From: Oscillospiraceae bacterium
GTDB taxonomy: Bacteria > Bacillota > Clostridia > Oscillospirales > Oscillospiraceae
Direction: 5' to 3'
Length of the DNA: 64,000 nucleotides
Assembly (NCBI GenBank): GCA_902765025.1
Contig: CACWYC010000012.1
Coordinates: 1 to 64,000, forward strand
Positions 4,461 to 22,166 of the stretch are shown in pieces. Under the pieces are notes generated by a model, which searched no databases, was not told where the DNA came from, and worked only from the letters and a program-made list of their open reading frames with translations. The position numbers were made by a program, and so were the translations under genes. The first letter of the stretch is position 1. Each line of letters opens with the position of its first letter.

Positions 4461-5659
4461 TGCAGGTACTGATTATCGGCGGCGGGGCCGCCGGCATGGC
4501 CGCGGCGCTGACGGCGGCGGCGCGGGGCCACAGCGTCACCATTTTGGAGCGGCAGGCCCGGGTGGGCCGGAAGCTGCTGACCACGGGCAACGGCCGGTGC
4601 AATCTCACCAATCAAAATGTCAGCGTGGCACATTATCACGGCGAAAACCCGGCATTTTGCCACTTTGCGCTGGAAAAACACACCCCTGCGGAGACCTTGG
4701 ACTGGTTTGCCCGGCTGGGGCTGATGACCGTCACCGAGGAGGGCGGGCGGGTGTACCCATTGAGCAATATGGCGGGCAGTGTGCTGGACGTGCTACGGTA
4801 CGCCTTGGAGCAGCCCCAAATCACCCTCCGGGCAGGAGAGACGGTGACGGCGGTGGCGAAAAAGGGCGGCCGCTTCACCGTGGAGACGGAGGGCGGCGCC
4901 TACCAGGCGGACAGGGTGATTCTGGCCGCCGGCGGCGCGGCGGGGGCCAAGGTGGGGGGCGTCATGGACGGCTACCGCATCGCCAAGGCCCTGGGCCACC
5001 ACCGCACGGCGCTGTACCCCTCCCTGGTGCAGCTGAAAACCGAACCCACCTACCCCCGGGCGCTGAAGGGCGTGAAGGCGGAGTGCGCCGTCACCATCCG
5101 CCGGGGGGAACGGGTCATGGCGGAGAACCGGGGCGAGGTGCTGTTTACGGAATACGGCGTCAGCGGGCCGGTGATCTTCGACATCTCCCGGGCGGTAGCC
5201 ACCGGCGGCGAGGGGCTGACCTGCTGCCTGGATTTGCTGCCGGAGGTGTCGGACGAGGCATTGCACGCCTATCTCCGGCAGCGGCGACGCGCCATGGGCG
5301 GCCACGAGGCCGCCACGCTGCTCACCGGGGCGCTGCAAAGCCGACTGGGCCAGATGGTGATGAAGTACGCCGGGCTGACCCAGGGCACCGCCGGGACGCT
5401 GACGGACGGGCAGCTTGCGCGTGTGGCGGCGGCGGTGCGGCAGTTTGCCCTGCCCATCACCGGCGTGTGCGGCTTCGACCAGGCGCAGGTCACCGCCGGA
5501 GGGCTGCGGACCGAGGAATTTGACCCCCAGACCATGGAAAGCCGCCTTTGCCCCGGCTTCTACGCCTGCGGCGAGGTGCTGGACGTGGACGGCGACTGCG
5601 GCGGCTACAACCTGCAATGGGCCTGGGCCAGCGGACGGCTGGCGGGAGAAAGCGTATAG
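4460..5659 (+). CDS. HI0933/BaiN-family NAD(P)/FAD-dependent oxidoreductase
   Basis: Flavoprotein of 399 residues. The N-terminal dinucleotide-binding motif is VLIIGGGAAGMAAALTAA, followed by the family signature GRKLLTTGNGRCNLTN; the C-terminal FAD motif is CGEVLDVDGDCGGYNLQWAW. Family members are annotated as aminoacetone oxidase-like or, for BaiN, bile-acid 3-dehydro-Delta4,6 reductases; the exact substrate cannot be assigned from sequence. The true start (ATG 4460) overlaps the ruvX stop, so the two genes form an operon ended by the terminator at 5667. Confidence 0.88.
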   Translation: MQVLIIGGGAAGMAAALTAAARGHSVTILERQARVGRKLLTTGNGRCNLTNQNVSVAHYHGENPAFCHFALEKHTPAETLDWFARLGLMTVTEEGGRVYPLSNMAGSVLDVLRYALEQPQITLRAGETVTAVAKKGGRFTVETEGGAYQADRVILAAGGAAGAKVGGVMDGYRIAKALGHHRTALYPSLVQLKTEPTYPRALKGVKAECAVTIRRGERVMAENRGEVLFTEYGVSGPVIFDISRAVATGGEGLTCCLDLLPEVSDEALHAYLRQRRRAMGGHEAATLLTGALQSRLGQMVMKYAGLTQGTAGTLTDGQLARVAAAVRQFALPITGVCGFDQAQVTAGGLRTEEFDPQTMESRLCPGFYACGEVLDVDGDCGGYNLQWAWASGRLAGESV

Positions 5660-13737: not shown

Positions 13738-16700
13738 TTAGTTGTTATTCTTATACGAATTTAGATCATAAGTATCATGCCCCGGACGACCAAGCAGGAA
13801 TTGTCCGTAGTCAATCCACTCTTTTAAAATACTGCCAGGTGTTGCGTCAGCCATCGCAGTCGCGATATAGGTGACGCTACGGTGCATGGGGCCGCAAACC
13901 ATGGTATACTCCTGGTCGCCCAGCCTATAGGTCAGGTGCAGCTGGCAATAGATCTCCGTATCAAACTGCGCAGCCTTTACTCTGTTGATAATCAGAGCTG
14001 CATACACCTTGCTGGTACTGGTGAGGGGTGCGCTGTAGCTCATGGACTCGTCCAGGCCCCAGTCGAAGTAAGACTTATCTGGGCCTTGCACGATTTCAGC
14101 GCCCTCAGGCAGATTGATCTTGAAACGCAGACGGAGGTCGGTAGCGTAGTTAATCACAGAATCACGATTGTCTGTCAGCACACGGCGACGCAGGCTGCCG
14201 CCATCAATCTCAAGGAAGCCGCCCTCGCTGGAATCCGGCAGGATTGCCTTGATGTCGGAGAAGTGGCTGACATAGAACTCGCAGTAGCCATCCGCATCAT
14301 CATACTTGAAGGTGTTCAAGGTGGCCTCGCTGCCCTTGGTCAGAGACTCCGTCGTAGTACCGCAGATGTGAAGCAGAATCTTAGGCTCAACGCCGGTGTA
14401 CAGCTTTACGAAGATAGGCTGATCCTTATCGATCATTTCGTTGGTGACTTCAACGCCCTCTACGCTGACAGGGTCTTCATTCTCCTTCGTCACGGTAACC
14501 GTGGCATAGGGGGTCAGGTCAAAGGTCAGGACCTTATCGACGGTCGGGTCATACTTCGTAGGCGTGACCTTTACGTCCACGTCGATTTTTACCGTGGCAG
14601 GGGAATCAAGGCTGCTGGTAAAATCGTCATTGTGATCAATCACAGCCTTTGTCCTCGCCGCGTCCACAACCGCCTGAACGCCGGTCTTGGTGTTGCTACT
14701 CACCGTTTTATCCATGGTCAGCACGACGCCGGAAACGGTGACGGCATTTTGGGTGGTTATGTTTGCACCACTAACCGCACTCGTGTACGCATTAATTGCG
14801 GTCTGATTACCCGTATCAGTAGTTACCAGTTTGGAGTCCTGATTCACGGTGACGGTGGCATTCTGATTCTCCACCACCTTCATCTTGTCGACCTTGTAGG
14901 GGTAGGCGCCTTTGGTGCTATCGTCATCATTATCCATCGCGGCATAGCCGGTTGCGATGTAAGCAGCGGCGGGCTTGGCGGAGAAGATACCGCCGGAGAT
15001 GAAGTTGGCGGGCATATCGTCGTCGCCGTCGATGGTGTCAGCCACAAACACAGCGCCGTCGCCGCCATTGAAGCTACCGCCGGTAACGTCGAGGGTAACA
15101 GGATGAGTGAAGGTAACAGTCTTATTTTTCCCGCTATCGTAAGAGTGGCCCACATACAGGGCGGCGTTGTTGTTGCTGGTAATGGTACCGCCGGAAACGT
15201 TCACTGCCATTCCGCCATACTGGCTATACGTGGGGGTGACGGAAATGGCCGCGCCGGTCATCTCGGTACCATTGTTGTTGGCCGCTGCGGGGTCAACCTT
15301 TACACCATTGGCGACAAGGGTTGCACCGTCCTGAACATTCAGCGTGCCCCGCTTCACGGTGATGGCGGTGTTGCCCGTCAGCGTACCACCGGTGACATTC
15401 ACGGTAGCCAGGCCGTTCAGAGCGATGGCGCAGTTATGATCAGAGGTAATGCTGCCGCCGGTCACGTTGATCACGTTCTTGGCGTCGCCGTCGATATTGT
15501 TGCCCAGGTTGCCGGAGACGAAGATGGCGCCATTGTCTTTGGTGTGAATTGTCGCTTTGGTATTCACCACCGCGCCGTAGCCATTGGTGGTAGCCTTTTT
15601 GCCAAACATGCAGACCGCGAACTCATCAGCGGTCACAGTCACATTGCTGGCAAGGGTCAGCACGCTGTAGTTCACCGCAGAGGAATTGTCGCTGCCGTAG
15701 ACGTTCAGCGCCTGCTTAGTGCCGCCGGCCACAGTACCATTCTGAATGGTCAGGTTACCGCTCTTCAGGTTGGTGCGGCCGGTGAGGGTCTTGCCGCCCA
15801 GGTCGAGGGTTACGGACTTGTCATCAAGGGTGACGTCCATGGGATCGCTCAGGGTGACGTCCTTCAGCAGCTCGATGGTCTCGCCGGTCTGCACAGCGGC
15901 GAAGGCAGCCTGGAGGGTGGCGTACTTCTTATTGCCAATCTGGGCGACGGCGGTATTAGCAGGGACAACCGTCCAGGTGCCGTTGCCGTTGTCCACAGCC
16001 TCATAGCCAGCGTGGACATAATCGGTAGGATCAGCATCGAATGTACCGCCAGTGATATCAATCTTGGCATACTCAGCAGCACCCGTGCCAGTACACACGA
16101 AGGTATACTCTACATTGGTAAATGTGCCGCCAGAAATGTTGATGATGGACTGGTTGTAATCCTCATGATAGGAATCGCGGTCGATATTCGCACAAAGCTT
16201 TCCCTGGAACGTGCCTCCCTTAATGTTGACAATGCCGCCCGAACTGAAAATATACACTGCATAACCATTATCAGAAGTATAGGTTCCGCTTTCCACTGTC
16301 AGTTCGGAGGGACCTTGACCTATGCCCTGAACAGTCAGCGCCGCATTACGCCACGATACCGCGTGGGAACCAGTATTAGTAACTGTCACATTGGTCAATG
16401 TTCCGCGCGCACCATTTGCATAACTCAACGCGGTATTACCGTTACCTGTGATGGTCACGTCCGTTAGGTTCGCAGTTAGTCCATCAAACAGCGTATTGTA
16501 GTCACCAGCGTCTTTCGCCAGCGTGATGCCGTTCACATTGAGAACATCGCTTGGCCTGTTGCCGCTATCATAATCGCCGAAGTAAAAACCGAAACGGCCA
16601 TCGGAAGGTGAAGTCAGCGTTTTGCTGCCGGTGATTGTGACTGTCTTATCTTTCAGCGCACTGGCAGTCACGCCGTACAGAATGTCGTTTGCTGTGCTGT

Positions 16701-18294
16701 CCGCAATTACCTCGATGGTCTGGCCGTTAGCAACATGCGTAATTGCATCTTTAACTGTCGTATAGCTTACATCGCCAATCTGGGCGACGTAGGTGGGCTC
16801 AGGAGCCAGGCCCACGATGCCCTCATATTCAGTATTGGACTTAATTGTGCAGGAATTGGTGCCGTCGACAGTCACATCAAAGGTTATGGCATCTCTCATC
16901 TTGGTTTCGGCAGTAGCCACTGTGTCGCCAGTACCGCCGGAAACCAGACCCATGATGTAGTTCTTGCCGCTGTCAATGCTGGCAGGGCCGGTCATGGTAA
17001 TACCACTCACCGTGCCTGTGTAAGAACTGGCCATCGGATTGGCAAACAGTCCGACCAGACCGCCCATGGTCAAATCCTTTTCATAACTCGTTGTCGCGCG
17101 GGACTCAAGCGTTACACCGCTGACGTTCACACCTGTGCAAGTGACATATGCTTCGTTCGCCTGTCCGATGAGACCACCGATCTTGCGATAGCCACTGATA
17201 ATTGTGTCGGAAACAGAGCAGTCCGTAATCGTCAGATAGCGAAGCGCCTGTCCGATCAGGCCGCCAACCATTCTGCCGTCACTGCCGGTGCAGCTGATGG
17301 TACCGCCGTTGACGGAGCAGCCGCTGATGGTAGACCGGGCTTCTGGTGCGGTCACGTTGTTGTTAAGGCTTCCGATCAGGCCTCCGACGTTACCGCCTTT
17401 GCCGTCATTTTGTGTACATGAGACAGTAGGATTGTTCACCGTGACATTAGTGATGGTCACGCAGTCTGCCTGGCCGACCAACACGCCGACATAGGAGCCA
17501 CTCGAAGTGACAGACGGATTGACAAATGTCAGGTTCTTAACCTCAAACCCGTTGCCGCTATGGCCACTGTTTCTAAAGAAGCCGGTTTCGGCGGTAGTGT
17601 CGTTGATCACCAGCCCGCTGATGGTGTGGCCGTCACCGTCAAAGATACCGTGGAATTTGCCTGCCATGGGCGTCCAATCAGATGTCAGTGTAATGTCAGC
17701 CGTCAGCCGAACTGTCTGACGCGGAAATCCCAGGCCGCTATATTCGCTGCGGAAACTTCTGCCCAGATTGACCTCACGGGCGAAGGCACGCAGCTCCGCT
17801 TCGTTACTGATGGTATAGACGTCGTTGACGGTGGAGAAATGCGGCACCAGCGTGATGTCCTCGGTCACATGAGTCGAGAAATCATAGCGCTCGTCTGAAT
17901 CCGGAAGTCTCCAACCGTCAAAAATGTAGACTTGACTTTGCTCGACGGAGAAAGGAATACCGTCGTTGTTGTCTGCGGGGAATGTCTTGCCGGAGTGATA
18001 CCAATAAGACGGTTTACCGGTAGGCTCGGTTGCTGTACCATTGTCGGCAACAGTCTGGGTCATGCAGTTAAGTACAACGGCCCCGCTTCTGCTAACGCCA
18101 TCCTGTGTTTGGAAAGAATAGGTAGTGATGTTATTATTAATAAAATCGTTATAATCAGAAATCGTCATATCGCCGACACTATCCCGAAGCAGGAAAGTAA
18201 CGGTATGGCTCCCCTCCGCCAACGCCGTCACCGGCACCAGCGTGAAGGTCATTACCAGCGCCATGAGGAGCGCCAGCAATTTCTTTTTGTTCAT
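13738..18294 (-). CDS. Large secreted beta-helix/GLUG-repeat protein
   Basis: A 1518-residue secreted protein. Residues 1-26 are a signal peptide (MNKKK, hydrophobic core, cleavage after VTALA). An InlB-like segment follows (about 110-150, IFDGWRLPDSDERYDF), then GLUG-type repeats (about 230-420, recurring GGLIGQ/GGLVG), then a long right-handed beta-helix of pectate-lyase-like repeats with INISGGTF, VNVTGGTLTG and VNVSGGTIT steps (about 500-1180), interrupted by two copies of a VAQIG..Y.T segment. The C-terminal third lacks such repeats. No LPXTG, SLH or other wall anchor is visible. Probably an adhesin or glycan-binding surface protein. GGAGG precedes ATG 18294; no convincing promoter lies just upstream. 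Confidence 0.85.
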   Translation of the reverse strand: MNKKKLLALLMALVMTFTLVPVTALAEGSHTVTFLLRDSVGDMTISDYNDFINNNITTYSFQTQDGVSRSGAVVLNCMTQTVADNGTATEPTGKPSYWYHSGKTFPADNNDGIPFSVEQSQVYIFDGWRLPDSDERYDFSTHVTEDITLVPHFSTVNDVYTISNEAELRAFAREVNLGRSFRSEYSGLGFPRQTVRLTADITLTSDWTPMAGKFHGIFDGDGHTISGLVINDTTAETGFFRNSGHSGNGFEVKNLTFVNPSVTSSGSYVGVLVGQADCVTITNVTVNNPTVSCTQNDGKGGNVGGLIGSLNNNVTAPEARSTISGCSVNGGTISCTGSDGRMVGGLIGQALRYLTITDCSVSDTIISGYRKIGGLIGQANEAYVTCTGVNVSGVTLESRATTSYEKDLTMGGLVGLFANPMASSYTGTVSGITMTGPASIDSGKNYIMGLVSGGTGDTVATAETKMRDAITFDVTVDGTNSCTIKSNTEYEGIVGLAPEPTYVAQIGDVSYTTVKDAITHVANGQTIEVIADSTANDILYGVTASALKDKTVTITGSKTLTSPSDGRFGFYFGDYDSGNRPSDVLNVNGITLAKDAGDYNTLFDGLTANLTDVTITGNGNTALSYANGARGTLTNVTVTNTGSHAVSWRNAALTVQGIGQGPSELTVESGTYTSDNGYAVYIFSSGGIVNIKGGTFQGKLCANIDRDSYHEDYNQSIINISGGTFTNVEYTFVCTGTGAAEYAKIDITGGTFDADPTDYVHAGYEAVDNGNGTWTVVPANTAVAQIGNKKYATLQAAFAAVQTGETIELLKDVTLSDPMDVTLDDKSVTLDLGGKTLTGRTNLKSGNLTIQNGTVAGGTKQALNVYGSDNSSAVNYSVLTLASNVTVTADEFAVCMFGKKATTNGYGAVVNTKATIHTKDNGAIFVSGNLGNNIDGDAKNVINVTGGSITSDHNCAIALNGLATVNVTGGTLTGNTAITVKRGTLNVQDGATLVANGVKVDPAAANNNGTEMTGAAISVTPTYSQYGGMAVNVSGGTITSNNNAALYVGHSYDSGKNKTVTFTHPVTLDVTGGSFNGGDGAVFVADTIDGDDDMPANFISGGIFSAKPAAAYIATGYAAMDNDDDSTKGAYPYKVDKMKVVENQNATVTVNQDSKLVTTDTGNQTAINAYTSAVSGANITTQNAVTVSGVVLTMDKTVSSNTKTGVQAVVDAARTKAVIDHNDDFTSSLDSPATVKIDVDVKVTPTKYDPTVDKVLTFDLTPYATVTVTKENEDPVSVEGVEVTNEMIDKDQPIFVKLYTGVEPKILLHICGTTTESLTKGSEATLNTFKYDDADGYCEFYVSHFSDIKAILPDSSEGGFLEIDGGSLRRRVLTDNRDSVINYATDLRLRFKINLPEGAEIVQGPDKSYFDWGLDESMSYSAPLTSTSKVYAALIINRVKAAQFDTEIYCQLHLTYRLGDQEYTMVCGPMHRSVTYIATAMADATPGSILKEWIDYGQFLLGRPGHDTYDLNSYKNNN

Positions 18295-18363
18295 GTTTTT
18301 TCCTCCATTAGAAATACGTTTTGTTTTCTTATGGTGTGCCGGGAAGCGCCCGGCGGGGTTTTT

Positions 18364-18383
18364 GCGGGACACGTAGGTCCCGC
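18364..18383. repeat. GC-rich hairpin repeat unit
   Basis: GCGGGAC (18364-18370) pairs with GTCCCGC (18377-18383). It resembles the next unit (18419-18440) and both are embedded in copies of a GCCCGGCGGG-type sequence, typical of dispersed intergenic repeats. Confidence 0.6.
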
Positions 18384-18418
18384 CCTACGAATTGGCGGGC
18401 ATCGCCCGGCGGGAGTTT

Positions 18419-18440
18419 GGGCGGACAGAGTCGTCCGCCC
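18419..18440. repeat. GC-rich hairpin repeat unit
   Basis: GGGCGGAC (18419-18426) pairs with GTCCGCCC (18433-18440); followed by CCTACGGGG. Confidence 0.6.
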
Positions 18441-18474
18441 CTACGGGGTAATCGGCTTCCCCTTGGGGGGAAGC

Positions 18475-18571
18475 TGTCAGCCGAAAGGCTGACTGATGAG
18501 GGGGCGATGTTCTATTGAACGTTGGTGGAAAACTGCCCCCTCATCCGTCACGGCCTTTGGCCGTGACACCT
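18475..18571. repeat. Two facing copies of a hairpin repeat
   Basis: One unit reads TGTCA, a hairpin (GTCAGCC/GGCTGAC, 18476-18493), then TGATGAGGGGGC. The second unit, on the opposite strand, reads GGTGTCA, a hairpin (GTCACGGCC/GGCCGTGAC, 18547-18567), then GGATGAGGGGGC. The shared outer sequence with different but self-complementary stems suggests a mobile REP-like or MITE-like family. Confidence 0.65.
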
Positions 18572-18926
18572 CTTGCCCTCGTTGCGGCAACCGTTTTTCG
18601 CTCCCGTTGGTCGCGAAAAGCGGGCCGCTGCCTTGCCACAGCCTCGCTTTTTCCGCCACAGGCGGCGCTTCGGCTGTAGGCCCCCCGAGGGGAAGGCTGG
18701 GTTCTACGATTTTATTCGCCCTGTTGTCCCTATCACCTCCGATGGTTGGTCCGGTGGGCGGTACGGCTGCCGGTGGTTCAGCAGCTACGCGCCGGCTGCC
18801 AACTGACTGGCTGCCATGTCGCCCGATTGCCTGGGCGCTCCTTTTAGGGGAACGTCGCTTCTTACTATTTCACGGGAGGCGCGACCTCCCGGTGAAAACA
18901 GGGGATTGCCGTTTATGGCCACGGCG

Positions 18927-19631
18927 CTATGCCGAAGTCATCATATCGTCGCCAAGGCCCTCACGGCCACGGCGGAGGGCGCTGCACGCCGGGCAGCCCA
19001 CGGCGGACTTGCCGGTGCGGCTGAACACCACCGCCTGCCACTCGTGGCCCCGGCCGCAGCGCCACCACACCTTGCGATGGCTGCCGGGGGTGACGGCGTC
19101 GGGGGTCAGGTCGCCGTTGCGGGGCGACCACTGGCGGGCCAGCAGCGGGTACTCCGCCGCCAGGCTGCCCCGGCGCTCCGGCCGGGGGCGGGGCGCTGCG
19201 CTGCGACGCGCCGCGGCGCACTGGGGACAGCCGCTGCCGCTTGTCACCGCCTGGGGGGACGCCCGCCAGGTATGGCCCTGGGCGCACTGCCACCACACGG
19301 CCCGGCGGCTGCCGGGCATCACGTCCTGGGGCGTGAGGGTGCCGTTATAGCTGGGGTGCCACTGGCTTGCCAGCGCCGGGGCCAGGGTGGCCAGATCGTT
19401 GACCCCCGGCACGGGGCGGAGCCCGGCGCAGTAGGGGCAGCCGGCGCCGGTCTTGCGGCCGTCGGGACTGGCCTGCCAGGCGTGTCCCTTATCGCACCGC
19501 CACCACACCTTCCGATGGCTGCCAAAGGTGACGGTGTCGGGGGTCAGGGGGAGATTCCGCTCCTCGTCCCACTGGGTCAGCAGAAAGCCGAAGCCCCTGC
19601 GCTGGCAGTGCTGCCGGAATGATTCACCCAT
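18927..19631 (-). CDS. Protein with three treble-clef zinc-ribbon (zf-TCL/DUF4379-type) domains
   Basis: A 234-residue soluble protein made of three tandem copies, at about residues 18-70, 82-135 and 165-220. Each reads L.xQW.........LTPD.V..GS.RxVWW.C..GH.W.A followed by a C-x2-C pair (CPYC, CPQC, CPAC), so each copy has C, H and CxxC zinc ligands. This matches the zf-TCL zinc-ribbon family, often linked to nuclease or DNA-binding contexts; no catalytic domain is visible here. The ATG at 19631 follows GGGAGGGAG. Only 33 bp separate it from the left inverted repeat, so its promoter must lie in or beyond the candidate invertible segment. Confidence 0.82.
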   Translation of the reverse strand: MGESFRQHCQRRGFGFLLTQWDEERNLPLTPDTVTFGSHRKVWWRCDKGHAWQASPDGRKTGAGCPYCAGLRPVPGVNDLATLAPALASQWHPSYNGTLTPQDVMPGSRRAVWWQCAQGHTWRASPQAVTSGSGCPQCAAARRSAAPRPRPERRGSLAAEYPLLARQWSPRNGDLTPDAVTPGSHRKVWWRCGRGHEWQAVVFSRTGKSAVGCPACSALRRGREGLGDDMMTSA

Positions 19632-19664
19632 GGCGTCTCCCTCCCCTCTCCGGGGCGGATGCGG

Positions 19665-19681
19665 CATAATGTTGATTATGT
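19665..19681 (+). repeat. Left inverted repeat of candidate invertible switch
   Basis: CATAATGTTGATTATGT, identical to the reverse complement of 19936-19952. Each copy is itself nearly palindromic (CATAAT-GTTG-ATTATG) with an asymmetric centre, the usual form of a tyrosine-recombinase core site. The flank continues TTGAAA. Confidence 0.75.
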
Positions 19682-19683
19682 TG

Positions 19684-19706
19684 AAAAAAGCACCCCGCAG
19701 GGTGCC
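19684..19706 (-). terminator. Terminator facing the zinc-finger gene
   Basis: Minus-strand GCACCC, TGCG loop, GGGTGC, then TTTTTT, sitting just inside the left repeat. In the present orientation it would stop minus-strand transcription coming from the recombinase side before it reaches the zinc-finger gene. Confidence 0.75.
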
Positions 19707-19859
19707 GTCAACGAATAAACGATATTTCAATAGCTGAACCCGCGTTTTTTCGCGTGCGAAACAGAGCCCCTTTTTCCGTCTGTGAAAAAGGGGCCGCCGT
19801 GCGTTCTCTAATTCTGAAAATGGAGGATGAATCGTTCACCCTCCGGCGGCAACTGGGGC

Positions 19860-19888
19860 TTGACAATACTATGTTTTTGGATTACTAT
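19860..19888 (+). promoter_or_regulatory. Promoter inside the candidate invertible segment
   Basis: TTGACA (19860-19865), 17-bp spacer, TACTAT (19883-19888). It reads rightward through the right repeat into the antisense of the recombinase gene; no plus-strand gene follows for 2.4 kb. After inversion it would read toward the zinc-finger gene. Confidence 0.75.
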
Positions 19889-19901
19889 TTGTTAAATAGT
19901 A
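19883..19901. promoter_or_regulatory. Palindrome overlapping the switch promoter -10 box
   Basis: TACTATTT-GTT-AAATAGTA, perfect 8-bp arms, overlapping the -10 box and start region; could be an operator or an mRNA 5' hairpin. Confidence 0.5.
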
Positions 19902-19935
19902 TAAATGTGGGCGGATAAGTACATTTGCTGTTGCG

Positions 19936-19952
19936 ACATAATCAACATTATG
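19936..19952 (-). repeat. Right inverted repeat of candidate invertible switch
   Basis: ACATAATCAACATTATG on the plus strand, the exact reverse complement of 19665-19681. The recombinase stop codon (19948-19950) lies inside it, so inversion would leave the reading frame end unchanged. Confidence 0.75.
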
Positions 19953-20805
19953 TTGCGGCGGCTTTTTTGCTGCCCAGCAGCACCAGGCCTGTGCGGCGCA
20001 GGCACCGGCGGTGCTCCTCGCCGGAGGTCATGATATAGATGCGGGTGGTGTTGATGCTGCTGTGGCCCAGCACGTCCGCCAGCCGGGCGATGTCCTTATC
20101 CACGGCGTAAAAGCAGCGGGCGAACAGCTTGCGCAGGCTGTGGGGAAACACCTTGCGCTGGTCTACGCCCGCCGCGGCGCACAGATTTTTCATGGCCCGC
20201 CAGACGGTGCTGCGGTGCAGGGGGCGGCCCGATCGGCCCACGAAAAGAGGGCCTTTGCCAATGCCCAGACCGGCGGCGTAGGACAGCAGCAGGCGGCGCA
20301 AATCGGGGGCGAGCAGGATGACCCGGTATTTCCCCTTGGCGTGGATGCCCACCTCCCCGCGGCGCACCGCCTCCAGGGTGAAATATTGCAGCTCGGAGAT
20401 GCGGATGCCGGTGGCGGCAATGGTTTGCAGCACCATTTGCAGCCGGGGCCGGCGGCGGGCCGCTTGCAGCAGCCGCCGGAACTCCTCCCGGGTCAGCTCC
20501 CGCTCGGCGGGGAGATAGGGGCTTTGCTGGAGGCGCAGGGCCTTTACCCGGCAGTCCTCCCGGCCTGAAAAGGCAAGATAGCTGTTGACGGCGGCCAGCA
20601 TGGAGTTGACGCTGCGCACGGCGTAGCCCCGCTCCTGCAAGTGGGCCTTGTAGTCCATCACCAGGGCTTTGGTCACCTCCCGGCCTCCGGCAAAGGCCAG
20701 GAAACAGGCCACATCCCGGCGATACTTCTCGATTGTGCAGCGGCTGCGCTCCTCCTGCTCCAGATGGGCCACAAACCGGGCCAGCGCATGGTTTTCACAG
20801 GACAT
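19948..20805 (-). CDS. Tyrosine recombinase (XerC/D-like integrase)
   Basis: A 285-residue site-specific recombinase. N-terminal SAM-like core-binding domain (about 1-90, TIEKYRRDVACFLAFAGG), then the catalytic domain with Arg in ATGIRISELQ, Lys in HAKGKYRVIL, His-x-x-Arg in FPHSLRKLF, His in LGHSSINTTRIY and the nucleophile Tyr in the same segment. All catalytic residues are present. ATG 20805 is 7 nt from AAGGAGG; an upstream TTG is rejected. Its 3' end runs into an inverted repeat, so it is the likely invertase for the adjacent segment; a solitary integrase from a lost element is the alternative. Confidence 0.88.
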   Translation of the reverse strand: MSCENHALARFVAHLEQEERSRCTIEKYRRDVACFLAFAGGREVTKALVMDYKAHLQERGYAVRSVNSMLAAVNSYLAFSGREDCRVKALRLQQSPYLPAERELTREEFRRLLQAARRRPRLQMVLQTIAATGIRISELQYFTLEAVRRGEVGIHAKGKYRVILLAPDLRRLLLSYAAGLGIGKGPLFVGRSGRPLHRSTVWRAMKNLCAAAGVDQRKVFPHSLRKLFARCFYAVDKDIARLADVLGHSSINTTRIYIMTSGEEHRRCLRRTGLVLLGSKKAAAT

Positions 20806-20876: not shown

Positions 20877-20923
20877 CAAAAAAGCACCGGCAGCGTCCCT
20901 TTTTTGGGGGGCGCTGCCGGTGC
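20877..20923 (-). terminator. Terminator after the rhamnosidase-operon regulator
   Basis: GCACCGGCAGCG (20884-20895) pairs perfectly with 20912-20923, followed on the minus strand by TTTTTTG. It lies between the regulator and the recombinase gene. Confidence 0.85.
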
Positions 20924-20939: not shown

Positions 20940-22166
20940 TCACCGGGACGCAAAGGCCTTGCGGTATTTGGCGGGGGAATAGCCGGTGACCTCGTGGAAG
21001 CATTTGATGAAGAAATTCTGGGAGGTGAAGGCCAGGCGCTCGGCAATCTCCCGGACGCACAGGTCGGTGGACTCCAGGAGCACCTTGGCCTTCTCGATTT
21101 TGGCGAAGCGGATATAGAGATAGAGGGGGATGCCGGTCTCCTTTTTGAATTTATCGGTGAGGTAATACTCGGTATACCCGGTGAGGGCCGCCAGGTCGGA
21201 CAGGCGGATCTTTTTATCCAGGCTCAATTCAATATAGGTGCAGCACTTCTGGATGGCGGGGGAATAATCGGGGTTGACCCGGAGGTTGTGGACGCGGTAG
21301 ATGAAATCGTGGTACATGGTCTGGGCCAGGGCGCTGAGCTCGCCGGTGTCACGGCTGCGGACGGCGGAGGCGATGTAGGCGTCGCCCAAGGGATAGGCCA
21401 CCTCCGGGCTGAGGCCGCCCTCGATGGCCGCCCGGCAGACCAGAGAGGTGAACACGATGATGCTGATGCGGGTCTGCTGCAAGGGATCCTCCCCCTGGAC
21501 CGGCACGCCGGGGCTCAGGCTGGAGGACAGGTTCAGGGCGTGCTGGTAGTTGATGTCGCCGTTGCGCACCATTTGCAGCATGGCCCGCTCCGCCTGGTAG
21601 ACCTTGGTGCGGTCCCGGCCCTGGGGGGCGGGGGCGGCATGGCCGGGGTCTGCAGTGGTTTGTTGCAGGGCGGACAGGTCCAGCCGGCTGCCGGTGAGGG
21701 CGTTGTGCACCATCATCACATAGCGGCTGAAAATGGCGTAGGGCATCACCGGCAGGAAGGGCAGGCGGCGCAGCAGCGCGGCGGCCCAGCGGGCGTCGGC
21801 CACGTCGTCGGTATACCGGCGGAGGATGCTGCGGAGCTGGGACTCGGAAGGCAGGGTGTAGAACACGGGGCCCGCCACGAACACCAGGCTGCCTCGGCGC
21901 TCCGCCTCAAAGGTGACGGCCCACTGCAAGCCGATGGGGGAGCCGATGAGCCGGGGCTCCCCCGCCTCCGCCGCCGCCAGTGCCTTCGCCCAGCCGCCGA
22001 AGCGGTGGAACGCCCGCTCCAGCAGGGGCCTGTCCTCGGCGGGGCAGGAGGTGCCCAGGCAGCGGCCGTCACGGGTGAAGCACCAGACGTAGAACTGCTC
22101 GTTGGCCGGTATCATGGCGTGGAGCAGCGTAAGATTCTGCTCGGCCTGGGTGATATGGGATTCCAT
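20940..22166 (-). CDS. AraC family transcriptional regulator
   Basis: A 408-residue regulator. The C-terminal HTH_18 domain is clear (KIRLSDLAALTGYTEYYLTD and IAERLAFTSQNFFIKCFHEV, ending GYSPAKYRKAF). The large N-terminal region (about 1-300) is not a simple cupin and resembles sensor regions of other long AraC-type proteins; ligand unknown. ATG 22166 follows GGGGAGAGG. It is divergent from the GH78-GPH-GH2 operon with a 204-bp gap between start codons, so it very probably controls that operon in response to its glycoside substrate. Confidence 0.9.
   Translation of the reverse strand: MESHITQAEQNLTLLHAMIPANEQFYVWCFTRDGRCLGTSCPAEDRPLLERAFHRFGGWAKALAAAEAGEPRLIGSPIGLQWAVTFEAERRGSLVFVAGPVFYTLPSESQLRSILRRYTDDVADARWAAALLRRLPFLPVMPYAIFSRYVMMVHNALTGSRLDLSALQQTTADPGHAAPAPQGRDRTKVYQAERAMLQMVRNGDINYQHALNLSSSLSPGVPVQGEDPLQQTRISIIVFTSLVCRAAIEGGLSPEVAYPLGDAYIASAVRSRDTGELSALAQTMYHDFIYRVHNLRVNPDYSPAIQKCCTYIELSLDKKIRLSDLAALTGYTEYYLTDKFKKETGIPLYLYIRFAKIEKAKVLLESTDLCVREIAERLAFTSQNFFIKCFHEVTGYSPAKYRKAFASR

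Follow-up and report, generated by a model that had tools for sequence, protein, structure and literature searches.

A probable locally encoded invertible-promoter switch beside a Xer-type recombinase in an Oscillospiraceae genome

In the genome of an Oscillospiraceae bacterium, a tyrosine recombinase gene ends within one of two inverted repeats that enclose a promoter, an arrangement that raises the question of whether the enclosed segment is turned around and, if so, which genes it controls. The locus is contained in a 64,000-nucleotide stretch of DNA, here termed the window (positions 1 to 64,000 of contig CACWYC010000012.1, GenBank assembly GCA_902765025.1). A sequence-only reading of the window had proposed that the segment inverts and that it is present in the OFF state. 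With inverted repeats around a promoter and a recombinase adjoining them, the locus has the makeup of a phase-variation switch, and comparison with related loci indicates that it is very probably a locally encoded invertible promoter.

Results

Putative recombination sites and the adjoining recombinase

The segment (19665 to 19952) is bounded by perfect 17-bp inverted repeats at 19665 to 19681 and 19936 to 19952, exactly as the sequence-only reading had described. These repeats are the sole pair of at least 17 bp at 100–700 bp spacing in the 64-kb window. In 40 sequences generated from a dinucleotide model, no inverted repeat of 17 bp was present, and repeats of 16 bp had a mean of 0.05, which rules out a chance origin. 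Overlooked in the earlier reading, each repeat arm is itself a palindrome, CATAAT-GTTG-ATTATG, composed of two half-sites around an asymmetric 4-bp core, and constitutes a complete putative recombination site. The left, or distal, site (19664 to 19681) reads GCATAAT-GTTG-ATTATGT, with its core at 19671 to 19674, and the right, or proximal, site (19936 to 19953) reads ACATAAT-CAAC-ATTATGT, with its core at 19943 to 19946; the sites and the segment are unstranded features. The core-to-core distance is 272 bp, or 26.0 helical turns at 10.46 bp. CATAAT-GTTG-ATTATG is found in only two copies in the 2.06-Mb genome, both beside the recombinase; one unrelated site has another core.

The right site overlaps the stop codon of the recombinase gene (19948 to 20805, minus strand), which confirms from the sequence that the gene ends inside the right repeat, as had been claimed. 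The 285-residue product is a XerA/XerD-like tyrosine recombinase that matches Phage_integrase (PF00589, E = 9.7e-20) and contains the R-K-HxxR-H-Y signature, with R135, K159, H222, R225, H248, and Y257 invariant in an 18-sequence alignment. The best sequence and fold matches are XerA, XerD, and XerH, of which XerA and XerD are the best solved relatives. Judged by its NCBIfam scores, the protein is not the chromosomal XerC or XerD, since these scores fall far under the equivalog cut-offs (bits/cut-off: XerD, 113.5/329.6; XerC, 108/335; XerA, 138/220). It is ~28–30% identical to the Xer-like proteins of the same genome. The AlphaFold model (pLDDT 82, pTM 0.60) is decent for the individual domains; whole-chain TM-scores near 0.5 and a high rmsd render the domain arrangement unreliable. 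A phage or plasmid origin was set aside, as the phage matches are all distant (best 41%) and the 42–48% relatives on large records filed as plasmids have an identical architecture. Between the recombinase gene and an AraC-type regulator gene (20940 to 22166, minus strand), a strong hairpin with a T run on the minus strand (20884 to 20923) probably insulates the recombinase gene against upstream transcription.

Promoter and terminators within the segment

A sigma-A-type promoter, TTGACA-17-TACTAT, lies where the earlier reading had placed it, at 19860 to 19888 on the plus strand, and 47 bp separate the end of its −10 element from the right site's inner edge. In the orientation read, this presumably active promoter is directed away from the target; the window is called OFF because the promoter points toward the recombinase, and the state originally proposed follows from that direction. 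The left-facing intrinsic terminator claimed for the segment is likewise present (19706 to 19689, minus strand; z = −3.8). In the OFF orientation it is directed at the target, where it would keep transcription of the recombinase gene from reading through. A right-facing intrinsic terminator, which had been overlooked, is made of the right site itself (19927 to 19968, plus strand): a 16-bp stem with the core as tetraloop is followed by TTTTTT (19927 to 19962 plus the T run; −23.5 kcal/mol, z = −3.7). The OFF-state transcript would be halted here, ahead of the recombinase gene.

A close relative in the other orientation

Three genomes carry recombinases that are 98–100% identical; locus L035 belongs to one of them, and G026 is the third. 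L035 (JAFSMA010000060.1), from a goat reticulum metagenome-assembled genome, has flanks that are collinear with the window at 96–97% identity, and between these flanks its 289-bp segment aligns inverted relative to the window (95%). The promoter in L035 is directed at an intact DUF4379 gene, so that inversion does place the promoter ahead of the zinc-finger gene, as had been predicted. The reversed segment between collinear flanks supports the proposal that the segment inverts. Comparison of related genomes for both orientations, which the sequence-only reading had suggested as a check, thus gives opposite orientations for the window and L035, and the wider family contains both ON and OFF loci. 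L035 represents another species-level genome, and its inverted segment could reflect a rare past event. In G026 (CAMKGX010000040.1, a bin of SRR12081293), the recombinase contig stops at base 19936, the inner edge of the repeat and the very point at which the two orientations would part, and overlaps the next contig, which has the window orientation, by exactly 55 bases. The break fits a branch in a k = 55 assembly graph and suggests, short of proof, that the sample contained both orientations. Both orientations, as read from these assemblies, occur in nature, and we infer that inversion takes place within one population.

Genes under the switch

The first gene under the switch (18927 to 19631, minus strand) encodes a 234-residue protein with three DUF4379 (treble-clef zinc finger) repeats; its start at 19631 is the one previously assigned to the zinc-finger gene. 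It is the only DUF4379 gene in the genome. DUF4379 resembles parts of phage endonucleases, and the protein is probably a nucleic-acid-binding accessory. The probable second gene of the unit (13738 to 18294, minus strand) encodes a 1518-residue secreted surface protein with a GLUG motif and a signal peptide recognized by eye. It is located 632 bp behind the DUF4379 gene, and no strong terminator was found in that gap. The intervening DNA, from the DUF4379 stop to the start of the surface protein gene (18295 to 18926), is repeat-rich and contains indels relative to L035. Co-transcription of the two genes is plausible, if rendered uncertain by the length and repeat content of the gap, and the controlled unit probably comprises the DUF4379 gene and the large surface protein gene behind it.

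Of the 130 loci of the recombinase family, 13 have a DUF4379 gene as the first gene after the switch, usually with a large secreted protein following closely. Targets elsewhere in the family include SLH or repeat-containing surface proteins, SipW-like signal peptidases with small secreted proteins, Wzz-type polysaccharide genes, and type IV pilin-like proteins. At L147, L149, L154, and L157 (4378 to 4653, minus strand), the position that the DUF4379 gene has in the window, first after the switch, is taken by members of a family of ~95-residue leader proteins that have no Pfam match. At L155, the first gene under the switch (4738 to 5586, minus strand) encodes a second tyrosine recombinase, an arrangement that suggests a cascade of switches.

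The recombinase family and its sites

By profile search, the recombinase clade is represented in 114 of the 395 near-complete genomes from the order and in 52 of 393 from the class. A site pair, defined as a perfect inverted pair of at least 12 bp with a palindromic centre beside the recombinase, lies by the recombinase stop in 71 of the 79 hold-out loci with enough sequence 3′ of the stop codon; the remaining ~10% of these 79, and likewise several recombinases of the first set, have no detectable pair. By the same definition, no pair was found beside any of 14 XerC/D-like paralogues or at random anchors in the window. Over 130 loci, the median stop-to-core distance is 19 bp. The same layout is observed in named records of Subdoligranulum variabile, Pusillibacter faecalis (with an SLH-domain target), and Monoglobus pectinilyticus.

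The family consensus, ACATAAT-N4-ATTATGT, is a dif-like palindrome whose arms are matched at 12 or more of 14 positions in 103 of 130 loci; arm variants include ACAAAAT/ATTTTGT and CGAAAT/ATTTCG. In its letters, this site corresponds to a symmetrised version of the central portion of dif (CATAA-N6-TTATG, PMC2731167). The cores are variable, with 75 different ones among 129 loci, and none of the 129 is palindromic (chance ~2e-4 with random cores), as expected if core asymmetry sets direction. All cores are distinct in 17 of the 19 genomes in which more than one locus was typed; in the other two, the loci share their spans as well as their cores. The polarity of the 129 proximal cores with respect to the recombinase is non-random, the third base being mostly a purine and the fourth mostly a pyrimidine, and perhaps reflects which strand is cut first.

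Several variations on this layout were observed. Three-site switches (L039, 6207/6470/6514; L044, 3041/3104/3353; L051, 6616/6689/6996; and L126, L127, L129, L166, and L167) have two direct sites 35–75 bp apart and one inverted site, a configuration that permits two inversion lengths or deletion. Genomes G042 (L046, L047, L049) and G118 (L172, L174, L176), both of one genus, have several loci each with core TGGT and arms ACATTAT/ATAATGT; several G042 contigs stop just behind the recombinase, and recombination between the loci sharing this core is possible. Contig C56 of G005 (L038, L039) contains three related recombinases within 40 kb, one with an adjoining site pair and two seemingly orphaned.

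Promoter direction and terminators across the family

When promoters were scored on both strands of the 130 loci with no favoured spacer length, one promoter was clearly better in 93, and 37 were ambiguous in direction. A 17-bp spacer is present on the winning strand in 80 of the 93 loci versus 20 of 93 on the losing strand (Fisher p = 2e-19). The −10 element of the winning promoter is located ~26, 37, 47, 57, or 66 bp from the site, with 47 bp in both the window and L035; promoter-to-site distances on the losing strand of the same 93 loci have no pattern. The window promoter shares its distance class and its 17-bp spacing with the family, and this conservation rules out a chance promoter, removing the weakness that the sequence-only reading had conceded for a match in AT-rich DNA. 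The quantisation of promoter-to-site distance may follow from the site-to-site rule described below together with common descent.

By promoter direction, 61 loci are OFF, with the promoter toward the recombinase, and 32 are ON (binomial p = 0.003). That OFF is the commoner assembled state, with its promoter aimed at the recombinase gene, would suit a segment that inverts mainly to control the recombinase itself, through antisense or read-through feedback. Against such a role, 36 of 59 loci have, in the interval from the proximal site to the stop codon of the recombinase gene, an intrinsic terminator directed so as to end the OFF transcript ahead of that gene, versus 1 of 59 with one in the opposite orientation, and the far-side genes recurrently serve the surface or secretion (SLH, β-helix, Listeria–Bacteroides repeats, signal peptidase, Wzz); we consider recombinase control as the main role very improbable. 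The recombination site supplies the terminator stem, and its core the loop, in the window and at about eight further loci.

Helical phasing of the distance between sites

Core-to-core distances cluster at ~220, 230, 241, 251, 262, 272, 283, and 292 bp, and the window segment falls on one of these peaks. The first 58 loci gave a period of 10.45 (R = 0.59). A periodicity test fixed in advance was then applied to new loci, and the phasing was found again in the order hold-out (n = 49, R = 0.60, V-test p = 1.5e-7) and in the class hold-out (n = 23, including one artefact of N bases at L248; p ~9e-6). For all 130 loci, the best period is 10.46 bp. Phasing is pronounced at 200–300 bp (R = 0.64) and non-significant above 300 bp (R = 0.25, n = 17). 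The signal is retained when each 70% recombinase identity cluster contributes a single locus (n = 64, p = 4e-9), which argues against shared ancestry as the sole cause, and it is weaker at 60% (n = 16, p = 0.014); Rayleigh p-values presuppose independence and are indicative. Length differences between related loci are mostly ~10, 21, 31, or 42 bp. The stop-to-site distance, measured in the same loci with the same script, has no periodicity (R = 0.05), and this flat control rules out an artefact of the site-finding script. The phasing is most simply explained by a short loop of matching twist through which the two sites meet, and by selection that has maintained efficient inversion.

The phasing also bears on whether the locus could be a former switch, now static, with its sites kept as terminators or as Xer/dif-like resolution sites and the L035 orientation as an old one-off. 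The right site does belong to a good terminator, and the sites do resemble dif (CATAA-N6-TTATG, PMC2731167). Distances held to helical steps in 130 loci point the other way, the only explanation being that the sites react with each other. The intact recombinase retains its full catalytic set, and contig ends are enriched at the sites (3′ side, 15 of 99; 5′ side, 3 of 77; Fisher p = 0.02; weak on a single strand, p = 0.05), some of them exactly at the inner edge. A static relic is considered very improbable, and a switch that still inverts is preferred.

Discussion

In the proposed mechanism, the Xer-type recombinase would bind the two identical dif-like palindromic sites of the window, each with 7-bp arms and a 4-bp asymmetric core, 272 bp apart. 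The sites would be brought together by a short, helically phased DNA loop, and the segment would then be reversed. In the OFF state, the single promoter would be aimed at the recombinase, its transcript would end at the terminator containing the right-site stem, and the internal terminator would stop read-through toward the target. In the ON state, as in L035, the promoter would be aimed at the DUF4379 gene and probably also serve the large surface protein gene. We likewise infer that the recombinase acts on the window sites.

A more general reading, toward which we lean, is that invertons of this family are encoded by length and by address. Whole-turn spacing would tune the switching rate, the 4-bp core would be the address of the locus, and the palindrome would have a second role as a terminator hairpin protecting the recombinase gene. 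With the sites synapsing through a short, direct DNA loop, the distance between them would be confined to whole turns. If this reading is true, a locus-specific core prevents recombination between the several switches of one genome.

Locally encoded invertible promoters are already known as a kind. The fimS element of Escherichia coli is an invertible promoter with local tyrosine recombinases, FimB and FimE. The family described here differs in having a single recombinase and dif-like palindromic sites with locus-specific cores, and no accessory-protein sites were identified here. In length, fimS is similar, at ~300 bp (PMC5903667).

RecV of C. difficile, the model offered by the sequence-only reading, is apt insofar as a tyrosine recombinase inverts short promoter or leader segments beside surface genes (cwpV, flgB, cmr), but it is not the closest analogue. 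RecV acts in trans on several switches with mostly unrelated repeats (PMC5903667), whereas the window genome has one site pair, beside the recombinase, and relatives each have their own. A better comparison is Cdi7, which alone among the C. difficile switches has a recombinase next to it. Similar to XerC/XerD-dif and XerH-difH, the family has a Xer fold and the inner site CATAA-N6-TTATG (PMC2731167); it differs in a single recombinase, a symmetric site, inverted pairs, and a probable function in inversion rather than dimer resolution.

The recombinase family is probably that of inverton group 139, as compared by class, gene type, and two lengths. According to a survey of a defined gut community (PMC11892184, Microbiome 2025), 32 of the 33 members of this group are from Clostridia and are linked to a tyrosine recombinase group, and orientation shifts over passages or with mucin attachment, reads showing both orientations. 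Group 139 and invertase group 35 resemble the present family in being clostridial and intergenic, ~230–240 bp long, with a tyrosine recombinase nearby (PMC11892184). For the two group 139 examples with printed coordinates, the start-to-start distance, computed by hand, is 231 bp in one and 241 bp in the other, and both values lie on family peaks (230.1 and 240.6). Main-text passages on group 139 describe no variable-core palindrome, terminator role, or helical phasing (PMC11892184).

The nearest precedent for the phasing is the ~10-bp periodicity of Paramecium IES lengths, which is ascribed to DNA looping in recombination (PMC3464196). That system is eukaryotic excision by a domesticated transposase, mostly below 150 bp, whereas the family is one of bacterial inversion at 220–300 bp. 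No description of helical phasing in bacterial invertons was found in the literature searched, and one may exist elsewhere. As far as checked, three features appear to be new: a dif-like palindrome whose core is specific to its locus, the second use of the site as a terminator, and the helical phasing.

The window locus reveals what an uncultured lineage of gut or rumen Clostridia switches, namely a DUF4379 gene and probably a surface protein. The known site anatomy, the readable ON or OFF state, and the size rule make it possible to detect and type switches of this kind in any assembly. The phasing, lost above 300 bp, constitutes a natural DNA-looping experiment that predicts a measurable 10.5-bp oscillation in switching rate, and it is taken to show that the efficiency of inversion is under selection.
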